Shown here one piece after another: positions 21,837-25,010 of a stretch of DNA of 64,000 nt. This stretch comes from Halobacteriales archaeon YIM A00010 (GTDB lineage Archaea > Halobacteriota > Halobacteria > Halobacteriales > Haloarculaceae): positions 2,745,526-2,809,525 of the forward strand of contig JAKCFJ010000001.1 of assembly GCA_025041175.1 (NCBI GenBank). The letters run 5' to 3'. The position numbers and the translations under genes were made by a program. The stretch's first letter is position 1; each line of letters opens with the position of its first letter. Under the pieces are notes generated by a model. It did not search any database, had not been told where the DNA came from, and saw only the letters and a list, made by a program, of their open reading frames with translations.

Positions 21837-21950
21837 TATCTATCCGCATTTATCTATCTCATTGATTATAAATCCACGGAGCACTCAGTCCGAACCGACC
21901 GCCGTTTGTGCTGGCGGCGTCCGTATTCGTATGACGGATCCGGCGACAGC

Positions 21951-22090
21951 ACCAGATGTCTCCGACATCTGGTTAGCAGCCAGAACCGTATGGTTCTGGC
22001 GACAGAGAGGCGCTACGCGCCTCAAGCAGTCGGACTCCGTCCGACGACGGCGAGGCACTCCGTGCCTCAGGCAACCGGACGTAGTCCGGT
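21951..22090. repeat. Array of six different short perfect palindromes (hairpins)
   Basis: Six adjacent perfect inverted repeats are visible: 21951-21973 (9-bp arms, loop CTCCG), 21980-21999 (8 bp, GTAT), 22007-22023 (7 bp, TAC), 22029-22045 (6 bp, CTCCG), 22052-22068 (6 bp, CTCCG) and 22074-22090 (7 bp, GTA). Arm sequences differ but loops and short spacers (AAGCA, GACAGA, GGCAA) recur. The array follows an ATG whose next bases, GACGGATCCGGCGACAG, nearly match the start of the radical SAM gene at 23250, which has two such hairpins. Confidence 0.85.
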
Positions 22091-22109
22091 GACGAAGCCC
22101 GACGAGCCT

Positions 22110-22664
22110 TCAGTCGTCGGTGTCTCCAACGCCGGCTCCACCGACGACGTGCGCCAGTTCGGGGTGGCGCTGCCGTAGCCCAGCGAGATCGCCGCGCTGT
22201 CGATACTGGCAGTAGGTCACCAGCGTGTCGACCAGGCAGGCCGGAGCGCTCTCTGCATCCGGTTTCTCGGTCATTTCGGCCGGCTCTCGCGAGTCGTCGG
22301 GGGTAAACACGGATTGGACCACGTCGCCATCGCGCTGTTCGTGAAAGCGCACGCATGCGCCGTTATCGAACCAGCATTCGACGATCGTCTCACCAGTGGC
22401 ACAGTAGCGCGTGAATCGCGCGATACCCGGCAGCTCGTCGTAGCCGCCCGCTCGGGGCGCTCCGAGGCCAGCGGTTGCGAGTATCTGCTCGATTTGAGTG
22501 GCGTGGGCGCACCCGGTGGACTGGCAGGGTCTACACCACAACCCTTCCCCGACATCGATGCTGTGGTACAGTTCGGCCTTCGACACTACCTCCCGATCCT
22601 CGATTGCCGAAAGGTTCACGACTTCACCCTGTCCATCCCGAAACTGGAACAACGGCAACGTCAT
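22110..22664 (-). CDS. Cys-containing haloarchaeal protein of unknown function
   Basis: From ATG 22664 (MTLPLFQFRDGQGEVVNL) the protein has 184 residues. Cys pairs occur at LWCRPCQSTGCAH (about 44-52) and singly at RYCATGE, VECWF, GACVRF and TYCQYRQ. The N-terminal half looks strand-rich and may bind metal. No family is recognised. Its ATG overlaps the TGA of the 48-codon zinc-finger gene upstream, so the two are probably translated together. The palindrome array lies just after its stop. Confidence 0.6.
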   Translation of the reverse strand: MTLPLFQFRDGQGEVVNLSAIEDREVVSKAELYHSIDVGEGLWCRPCQSTGCAHATQIEQILATAGLGAPRAGGYDELPGIARFTRYCATGETIVECWFDNGACVRFHEQRDGDVVQSVFTPDDSREPAEMTEKPDAESAPACLVDTLVTYCQYRQRGDLAGLRQRHPELAHVVGGAGVGDTDD

Positions 22665-22807
22665 CGCCACCACCGCCCCTGCGGGCAGCCCATCCGGTGG
22701 TCGAGCCGCGTGCGAACCGGTCGGCCGCACACCGGGCAGCGCGTTCTCTGGTTGTCATTCTGATACGATGCGACACCGTTACATGTCTCTGATTCATTCC
22801 CCATCAT
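22661..22807 (-). CDS. 48-residue CPxCG zinc-finger protein
   Basis: This small frame begins with two ATG codons (22807, 22804) and encodes NQRTRCPVCGRPVRTRLDH, then RMGCPQGRWWR. Cys24, Cys27 and Cys41, with His37, could coordinate zinc. It is one of the haloarchaeal CPxCG micro-protein type. Its stop overlaps the start of the downstream gene (ATGA). Longer in-frame extension to 23008 has no coding look. Confidence 0.6.
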   Translation of the reverse strand: MMGNESETCNGVASYQNDNQRTRCPVCGRPVRTRLDHRMGCPQGRWWR

Positions 22808-23249
22808 GGGTTTTCGTCTGACGGGAACCCCAGCGTCGGGTCCTCTACACCCGGCGCGTTTCAACGAACGCGCGCCACCTCGCGTGGGCTGGCGTCCCCA
22901 TGTATCCTTCGCTGCTCCATCACTCATAAAGGTACTGATGGAACGGGTGTCGTTATGATACAGTAACACGTTCTTCGACGCGCAGGGAAGCACCACACAT
23001 CGACACACCAGGTCCCAGATCCACGACGATATCTACCACTCACCGAGAGCTGTCCGGAGAACAGCAAACGAAGCGATCAGACAGAACGAGCCATACACCC
23101 GGACACGAATAGCGCAACACGCAGGTGACCGCATCCCGGACAACAGGATTGGTCCCGGCCAATCAGGCGACATATCGGTACATGAATCGGGTCCGGGTGT
23201 ACAGCCCCAACGGAACACCGTTTTACGCCCTGACGGCGTTCGTACGTCT
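22808..23249. other. Intergenic region without recognised gene
   Basis: About 440 bp between the divergent zinc-finger and radical SAM genes. It contains a small inverted repeat, GATTGG-TCCCGG-CCAATC, near 23149-23166. No convincing ORF or RNA gene was seen; short frames here lack coding character. Confidence 0.5.
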
Positions 23250-25010
23250 ATGACCGATCCGGCAACAGAGCGGAGCGAAGCTCCGCAAGCAGTCGGACGT
23301 AGTCCGACGACACTCGACGTGACGATCGTGGACGGCTACGTCGACGAGCCGGCGCATTTCGGCGTTCCGCCGTACATCTCCACGTACCCGCGCTACACCG
23401 CTGGCGCGCTCGTCGACGCCGGCGTTCCCGAGGAACGGATCACCTACCACACCATCGACGCGCTCCGTGAGGAGCCGTCCCGCCGGGAAGACATCGAAAC
23501 CGCTGACCTGTTCGTCTACGTCGGCGGGATGACCGTTCCCGGGAGCTACGTGGGCGGGACACCGGCAGAACCCGAGGAGGCGCGCCGGATGGCGTGGACC
23601 GCGACCGGAACGACGCTCGTCGGCGGCCCGGTCCGGTTCGGCGTCGGAACCCAAAACGAGGGCGCAACCGACACCGAGCGCGACGATCTCGACTACGACT
23701 TCGTTGCGAAAGGCGACATCGAGGCCGCCGCCTACGATCTCGTGACCAACGGGCTAGAGGGCTTTGGCAACCGCATCCGCGACACCGAGGAAGTCACCCG
23801 CTGGGCCAGCAAGGGTGCGTTCGTGGTCGAAAACCACCCCAACCACCCCGACTACCTGATCGCGGAGCTCGAAACCGGACGCGGCTGTCCGTACCGGTGT
23901 TCGTTCTGTACGGAACCGCTGTACGGAGACCCATCGTTCCGACCGCCCGAGACGGTCGTGAGCGAGGTCGAGGCGCTCGTCGCCAACGGGGTGCGTCACT
24001 TCCGGCTGGGGCGACAGGCCGACATCCTCGCGTACGGCGGTGACGGCGAACGCCCGAACCCCGACGCGCTTCGGACGCTGTACGGCGGAATCCGTGAGAC
24101 CATCCCCGACGCCGACGCCAGCACGATCCACCTCGACAACATGAACCCGATCACGATCGTGAACTGGCCCGAGCGTGCCCGGGAGGGGATCCGGATCATC
24201 GCCGAGCACAACACGCCGGGGGATACGGCCGCGTTCGGACTCGAAAGCGCCGATCCAGTCGTTCAGGAGGAGAACAACCTCAACGTGAGCGCAGAGGAGT
24301 GTTTCCGGGCGGTAAAGATCGTGAACGAGGCGGGTGGGTGGCGGCCCGGCGAATCCCCCGGAGATGGGCCGACACACGGGCCACACTCCAAGCGTTTGCC
24401 GAAACTGCTCCCCGGAATCAACCTGCTTCACGGGCTGCAAGGCGAGCGCGAGGAGACGTACGAGCAGAATCTGGACTTTCTTCACCGGGTGTACGACGCG
24501 GGGTTGATGGTCAGGCGCGTGAACATCCGGCAGGTGATGGCCTTCGATGGAACCGACATGAGCGACACGGGCGCACAGATCGCCCACGATCACAAGGCCC
24601 AGTTCAAGCGGTACAAACAGACGGTGCGCGAGGAGATCGACAACCCGATGCTCAAGCGTGTCGCGCCGCCGGGGACCCGCCTCCCCGACGTTCACTTGGA
24701 GTACCACCAGGACGGAAAGACATTCGGGCGCCAGCTCGGAACGTACCCGCTGCTCGTCGCAGTGCCGGGCGAACGCCCGCTGGGACGCACGATCGACGTG
24801 GCCGTCACGGACCACGGCTATCGATCGGTCACCGGCGTTCCCTACCCACTCGATCTCAACAGCGCGTCGATGAACGAGCTGACCGCAGTGCCAGGCGTCG
24901 GCCAGCGACGAGCGGGATCGATCGTCGTGAACCGACCCTACTCCTCGACCGCCGACGCTACCGAGGAGCTCGATGTCGACATCCACGACTTCACGACGGT
25001 CCGAACGTGA
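23250..25010 (+). CDS. Radical SAM protein with C-terminal helix-hairpin-helix (COG1031 type)
   Basis: This iron-sulfur enzyme of unknown substrate has the SAM-cluster motif CPYRCSFC (Cys213, 217, 220), preceded by a B12-binding-like N-terminal domain (VTIVDGYVDEPAHFGVPPYI; VYVGGMTVPGSYVGG). The C-terminal helix-hairpin-helix LNSASMNELTAVPGVGQRRA may bind nucleic acid. The family's conserved sequence begins at about residue 22 (LDVTIVDGY). The first 21 residues (MTDPATERSEAPQAVGRSPT) are encoded by two palindromic hairpins, 23270-23286 and 23292-23308, relatives of the array at 21951-22090, and look like an inserted repeat tolerated at the N-terminus. Confidence 0.88.
   Translation: MTDPATERSEAPQAVGRSPTTLDVTIVDGYVDEPAHFGVPPYISTYPRYTAGALVDAGVPEERITYHTIDALREEPSRREDIETADLFVYVGGMTVPGSYVGGTPAEPEEARRMAWTATGTTLVGGPVRFGVGTQNEGATDTERDDLDYDFVAKGDIEAAAYDLVTNGLEGFGNRIRDTEEVTRWASKGAFVVENHPNHPDYLIAELETGRGCPYRCSFCTEPLYGDPSFRPPETVVSEVEALVANGVRHFRLGRQADILAYGGDGERPNPDALRTLYGGIRETIPDADASTIHLDNMNPITIVNWPERAREGIRIIAEHNTPGDTAAFGLESADPVVQEENNLNVSAEECFRAVKIVNEAGGWRPGESPGDGPTHGPHSKRLPKLLPGINLLHGLQGEREETYEQNLDFLHRVYDAGLMVRRVNIRQVMAFDGTDMSDTGAQIAHDHKAQFKRYKQTVREEIDNPMLKRVAPPGTRLPDVHLEYHQDGKTFGRQLGTYPLLVAVPGERPLGRTIDVAVTDHGYRSVTGVPYPLDLNSASMNELTAVPGVGQRRAGSIVVNRPYSSTADATEELDVDIHDFTTVRT
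23270..23308. repeat. Two palindromic hairpins inside the radical SAM coding start
   Basis: GCGGAG-CGAAG-CTCCGC (23270-23286) and GTCGGAC-GTA-GTCCGAC (23292-23308) are perfect inverted repeats separated by AAGCA. The second is nearly the same as the fourth hairpin of the array at 22029-22045, including flanks (CAAGCA before, GAC after). They are in frame and leave the reading frame open. Confidence 0.85.

Follow-up and report, generated by a model that had tools for sequence, protein, structure and literature searches.

A palindromic double-hairpin module dispersed across haloarchaea and inserted in frame into protein genes

Results

The densest hairpin cluster of the window, i.e. the whole 64-kb stretch of DNA that was analyzed, is located at 21951-22090, is intergenic (no obvious gene holds it) and consists of six adjacent perfect hairpins with arms of 10, 9, 7, 7, 7 and 7 bp and loops of 3-4 nt. 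These six hairpins had been recognized correctly in the initial annotation; the arm lengths of 6-9 bp given there have to be revised to 7-10 bp, and of the loop described as CTCCG only TCC is a true loop, the outer C and G being the closing C-G pair. According to the hairpin calls, which carry no strand, the array starts with ACCAGATGTC-TCC-GACATCTGGT (hairpin 1, 21951-21973, arm 10) and GCCAGAACC-GTAT-GGTTCTGGC (hairpin 2, 21979-22000, arm 9), followed by four hairpins with arms of 7 bp: GAGGCGC-TAC-GCGCCTC (hairpin 3, 22007-22023), which recurs identically at several other places of the genome, GTCGGAC-TCC-GTCCGAC (hairpin 4, 22029-22045), GAGGCAC-TCC-GTGCCTC (hairpin 5, 22052-22068) and ACCGGAC-GTA-GTCCGGT (hairpin 6, 22074-22090). 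The last two have altered counterparts in a homologous array at C1:1767830.

The stretches between the hairpins are 5-6 nt long and conserved, and the arms are variable. On the + strand the spacers alternate between a RAC type, namely GACAGC (21945-21950, an insertion target at other loci), GACAGA (22001-22006), GACGGC (22046-22051) and GAC (22091-22093), and an NNGCA type, namely TAGCA (21974-21978), AAGCA (22024-22028) and AGGCA (22069-22073), which is also seen as linker in the module alignment. The whole array (21945-22093, + strand), its outermost GACAGC and GAC included, is made up of three tandem modules with two hairpins each, as judged from the sequence and from family matches throughout the genome; its length of 146 bp is no multiple of three because hairpin 2 measures 22 nt. 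Folding was much more stable than that of shuffled sequences (z = -7.9 as DNA and -7.0 as RNA), and none of 200 shuffles was equally stable. As had been stated in the initial annotation, the array is unlike CRISPR, which has constant repeats and unrelated spacers of uniform length instead of conserved 5-6-nt stretches between variable arms, and unlike a simple intrinsic terminator, no T run being found behind any of the six hairpins. No curated covariance model of Rfam matched the window array even at E up to 1.

The left flank of the array (21886-21949, + strand) resembles, by sequence comparison, the upstream region and the first codons of the radical-SAM gene of the window (23250-25010, assigned by Pfam), and it is about 76% identical over 67 nt to the start of the radical-SAM gene in the related genome G051. 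This flank is probably a duplicated 5' gene end in which the array grew to three modules, and the array seems to be placed at the same CCGGC|RACAG point as the insert in the radical-SAM gene. The pattern GACCGATCCGGCRACAG, used for copies of the array flank, gave mostly chance matches and was abandoned. At the orthologous intergenic position of G051 the module is absent, and a different set of hairpins with T runs is found there. The radical-SAM gene itself carries, in frame at codon 5, a single module (23264-23308, + strand) composed of AACAGA, a hairpin at 23270-23286, AAGCA and a hairpin at 23292-23308. These two hairpins (23270-23308), the seventh and eighth of the family, had been absent from the initial annotation.

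Two other repeats were noticed in this part of the window. An ~850-bp repeat at 22107-22968, whose 3' end adjoins the hairpin array, has more than 30 copies on contig C1, most of them with 76-85% identity, and is also found in G051, G038 and others; a 206-aa minus-strand ORF within it had no Pfam or NCBIfam match. An ~115-bp repeat at 23093-23208 has about ten copies elsewhere in the genome (89-98% identity).

In a spread 400-kb sample of the same genome, the assembly of which is listed as 3.9% contaminated, 21 arrays of at least two adjacent perfect hairpins were counted (5.25 per 100 kb), compared to about 0.4 per 400 kb (0.1 per 100 kb) expected in third-order Markov sequence. In 80-kb samples of relatives the number of hairpin arrays was 0 for G051 and G024, 1 for G004 and G098 and 2 for G003; the genome of the window looks like the site of a local burst. 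Perfect-hairpin arrays of further families, distinguished by their spacers, occur in this genome (L066, L073, L074, L087, L089, L102 and L107), and some of these lie near T-rich, terminator-like stretches (gcgagcggctttttt). In the array L079 the loop of one hairpin (GCGGAG...CTCCGC) contains a further pair of hairpins, which looks like an insertion into the tip.

Each module measures 45-57 bp. A RAC(AG) spacer is followed by a palindrome that is short and perfect, then by an NNGCA linker, another palindrome and a final RAC. BLAST of the window array against its own genome gave 59 matching places, and a covariance model of the 48-nt module (R1), built from 26 spacer-anchored copies, gave 101 matches at E up to 0.1, with about 80 at E below 1e-5. 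The nearest genomic relative of the window array, at C1:1767830, is identical over the first 54 nt; its counterpart of hairpin 5 is GAGGAAC-GAA-GTTCCTC, i.e. a paired change and a new loop, and its counterpart of hairpin 6 is ACCGGCC-GTA-GGCCGGT, i.e. a single paired change. Homologous arrays differ through such paired arm changes and through loop changes, and tandem arrays of unequal length have modules in common.

A haloarchaea-wide search, as suggested in the initial annotation, unveiled the module in 119 of 145 genomes of a class-wide sample. In a phylum-wide sample all 27 genomes with matches belonged to the order of the window, and none of roughly 164 others had a match. Fourteen genomes of one genus (g25) carry at least 15-41 module matches each among the candidates scored, the counts for genomes other than that of the window being lower bounds. 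The best matches among plasmid records include Halocatena salina, and in public plasmid records of other haloarchaea module matches lie within annotated genes such as merA and one for an alkaline phosphatase family protein. Virus-borne transfer found no support in one exact-pattern scan of viral contigs, in which no module was detected (a weak negative).

Empty orthologous sites in genes of the same genus revealed eight exact insertions of 45-216 bp, and all eight are multiples of three with a continuous reading frame. With lengths taken as gaps in the alignments to orthologs and genes named by Pfam, the inserts comprise 45 bp in a racemase-like gene, in a P-type ATPase and in the radical-SAM gene of the window, 93 bp in a MaoC-like gene, 135 bp in a CofC-like gene, 153 bp in PEP carboxylase and 216 bp in a GH3 glycosidase; a further insert of 141 bp lies in an unnamed gene without Pfam family. 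The initial annotation had been right to consider a family of palindromic inserts. The inserts are flanked by short RAC(AG) direct repeats. For example, the empty GH3 site of relatives reads GGC|GACAG and the filled site GGC|GACAG...GGT|GACAG, and the boundary repeats are AACAG for CofC, GACGA for the ATPase and ACA for the radical-SAM gene. The module in the radical-SAM gene is absent in G024, G063 and G004 and present in G051 and G038, and at the CofC insertion point G038 is empty and G051 has a related but degenerate insert.

Translation of the in-gene inserts is predicted and would yield hydrophilic peptides, for instance DSEERSSSGSRTQSGD, or DSEEQRSSGNRTQSGD for the insert of the racemase-like enzyme. 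Among the clear sense-strand cases 19 of 24 use one frame and encode DSEERSSS-type peptides, with frames assigned from the longest ORF wherever a gene is not among the proven cases. This preference for one frame would agree with selection for a useful acidic/serine loop motif at the peptide level, the coding DNA being palindromic by accident. Such an origin is extremely improbable, as other frames are used as well (TERSEAPQAVGRSPT in the radical-SAM and CofC genes), intergenic arrays including that of the window exist, pairing is exact at all codon positions, and independent synonymous arm changes would be needed, whereas the paired positions are observed to change together.

In histidine-kinase-like genes of other haloarchaea (L307, L311, L314 and L318) tandem modules lie right at a motif that resembles an N-box (NLFRNSVEHGSTSSR...DDSVEHGS); it looks as though the array had arisen from the palindromic codons of this motif. 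Furthermore, in an IS605-type tnpA (L114; L103 16078-16494) a double hairpin that belongs to another spacer family occupies 45 bp in frame between FVW and KYR.

Within several genomes modules of the family are located in the loops of IS-like terminal hairpins. This location would fit a MITE-like or REPIN/BIME-like element that is moved in trans by an HUH (Y1) transposase of the IS200/IS605 or RAYT type. Such transposases read single-stranded hairpins and join at a short target that is kept at both ends, as ISDra2 does with TTGAT; the haloarchaeal hairpins are likewise paired with a short target kept at both ends, and the genome of the window has four Y1 genes, at least one of them beside a tnpB-like gene. 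However, three of ten copy-rich genomes are without any Y1 match, and ten of fourteen genomes without module match have Y1 in up to ten copies. Copy number does not track Y1, which leaves mobilization by Y1 or RAYT unsupported. The tnpA at C1:2536093 itself bears such an insert, so that insertion beside IS genes may be plain targeting. REPs, moreover, have conserved arms and are extragenic (PMC3116915), whereas here the arms vary and many copies lie in genes. Taken together, we regard transposition in trans by a Y1 enzyme as unlikely.

Pairing of the arms was analyzed cell by cell in module alignments. For 26 modules of the window's genome 98.4% of the cells were paired, ten pairs had changed on both sides in 67 cells, and wobble occurred in one cell; for 59 distinct modules from many genomes, in an alignment fitted to a covariance model, 99.5% of the cells were paired with 151 double-change cells. 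In neither case did any of 500 shuffles reach these values. Without model fitting the spacer-anchored modules were bimodal, either fully or almost fully paired or chance matches, with little in between. Arm changes between near-identical modules (at most 6 differences) comprised 94 paired Watson-Crick changes, 6 one-sided changes and 2 paired but broken ones, counts that do not represent probabilities, the modules being related and the sequence pairs no independent events. Evidently, the arms covary as the initial annotation had claimed, but the loops are not fixed as claimed there: across the family they are among the most variable positions. A rule by which all loops were GNA/TNC (extra-stable DNA triloops) was dropped as well, since AAA, AAC, ACA and others are common. 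Partial conservation (GAGG, CGG) is seen at the outer positions of the arms.

Covariation of this strength, together with a stable RNA fold, could in principle originate from a structured RNA under selection, e.g. a processed transcript or a regulatory 3' UTR, in which compensatory changes keep the fold. An RNA helix tolerates G-U and would favor G-T on its own strand. The corresponding cells showed no excess of G-T over A-C (0 and 3 in the genome of the window, 7 and 7 in other genomes, 7 to 10 overall). Since wobble intermediates are rare and G-T is no commoner than A-C, pairing is kept at the DNA level and not as RNA, which points to a structure-reading step during spread or to copying of one arm from the other. 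The lack of both a wobble excess and an Rfam match, the occurrence of copies in many unrelated genes and phases and the decay of hairpins in G051 and G038 make a selected RNA structure very unlikely.

This decay was found in the insert of the radical-SAM gene. This insert is common to the window's genome, G051 and G038, and it is therefore most likely older than their split; the flanks are about 90% identical. In the window's genome the two hairpins are paired in 7/7 and 7/7 positions, in G051 and G038 in 3/7 and 6/7. Either the hairpin has ceased to be repaired or selected in the lineages of G051 and G038, or the copy of the window's genome was rewritten. Arm drift in aligned relatives, which the initial annotation had named as evidence against its own interpretation, thus occurs at one shared site. 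The decayed pairing counts against site-by-site selection, and the earlier proposal that pairing persists under selection has to be narrowed: pairing is kept in spreading copies, not necessarily at each resting site.

Discussion

Open-access literature on haloarchaeal palindromes, in-frame palindromic elements, double hairpins, REP/RAYT and double-hairpin elements (DHE) contained no description of this family that we could find. DHE in the mitochondria of Allomyces and Schizosaccharomyces and the repetitive hairpin-forming elements (RHE) of sponges, the mechanism of which is unknown, likewise have two adjacent short hairpins per unit, are dispersed and occasionally lie in genes (PMC10085805, PMC2800124), and their copy number is sharply unequal between close relatives. 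The haloarchaeal module shares with DHE the two-hairpin unit with short linkers, as documented by the alignment and the pair counts, and a presence or absence between relatives that suggests mobility, as documented by the empty sites. In contrast to DHE and RHE, it is found in haloarchaeal genomes only, on the archaeal chromosome and megaplasmids instead of fungal or other mitochondrial genomes, is often tandem and lies frequently in frame in protein genes. Furthermore, RAC(AG) repeats flank its inserts, whereas the Allomyces elements were reported without flanking duplications (PMC2800124).

Rickettsia palindromic elements (RPE) are palindromic selfish DNA placed in frame in many unrelated protein genes (PMC10969869), a property that the eight proven inserts share. 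RPE are units of about 100-150 bp with a conserved peptide, whereas here modules of 45-57 bp with two hairpins are found, and arms and peptide vary. The haloarchaeal family works like DHE and, in genes, like RPE, yet it fails defining features of both. REP, BIME and REPIN sequences are also small palindromes in doublets and tandem arrays with non-autonomous spread (PMC3116915, PMC3733652), but their palindromic core is conserved, their arms are imperfect and they are linked to RAYT, whereas the arms of the haloarchaeal module are perfect and variable and its copy number does not require Y1. Coding palindromes in Nematomorpha mtDNA resemble the module in their perfect inverted repeats within coding genes and in the all-or-none identity of the arms, an observation used to argue for template-switch conversion (PMC6649704); they differ in being long inverted repeats (up to 284 bp) of mitochondrial genes, not short inserted modules of a dispersed family.

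In our preferred reading, to which we give somewhat better than even chances, the window array consists of three tandem modules of a selfish double-hairpin element, non-autonomous and compatible with coding sequence, that occurs across haloarchaea and is spread and repaired by template switching. A palindrome-generating process had already been considered in the initial annotation, and a process that makes or repairs palindromes is the best current reading, with template switching as the mechanism that we infer. Whether single or in tandem, modules enter RAC(AG)-like targets and come to lie between copies of this short direct repeat, as observed at the flanks. On a nascent single strand a hairpin would stall or snap back; entire modules would be copied to further RAC sites by a template switch at RAC(AG) microhomology, and a switch from arm to arm (quasipalindrome correction) would reset both arms together. 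The outcome would be perfect arms of changing sequence without a dedicated transposase.

Template switching is supported by the match between insert boundaries and target boundaries, by the modules that tandem arrays of unequal length have in common, by the lack of a reverse transcriptase match and by a copy number that does not follow Y1 transposases. On the other hand, template switching is not peculiar to haloarchaea and leaves the heavy load of only this lineage unexplained, and, judged by known quasipalindrome correction, the arms of 7-10 bp around 3-nt loops are short. The decay of the shared hairpin in G051 and G038 means that conversion is not universal. An RNA copy made by reverse transcriptase was rejected, as a search of the window's genome with PF00078 detected no reverse transcriptase.

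Pure copying would not need the partly conserved outer arm bases, but a DNA-binding protein would. These bases, the sequence-specific RAC(AG) boundaries and the insertion of whole modules would be compatible with a DNA element moved by another enzyme, such as a serine or tyrosine recombinase or a Cas1-like integrase, that reads the structure of the palindrome and not its sequence. No candidate gene was found in a search that covered Y1 and reverse transcriptase, and the module copies that were read bear no gene of their own; we consider such an enzyme improbable. The most far-reaching form of the template-switching reading, for which we see a possible but rather doubtful case, would be a haloarchaea-wide class of selfish DNA in no need of a transposase, which multiplies and mends its own palindromes through template switching driven by hairpins and so goes on adding disordered peptides to housekeeping enzymes.

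If true, these findings would describe a widespread, apparently undescribed mobile element of a whole archaeal class. PEP carboxylase, P-type ATPase, CofC and other enzymes would owe in-frame peptides to it, and annotated haloarchaeal proteins would include insert-derived peptides, as predicted from translation. For the interpretation of palindromic DNA, covariation alone is no proof of a functional RNA. The family would offer a clean natural test of palindrome evolution, and DNA-level pairing almost free of wobble makes selection for structure versus arm-to-arm copying directly testable by Haloferax and Haloarcula genetics.
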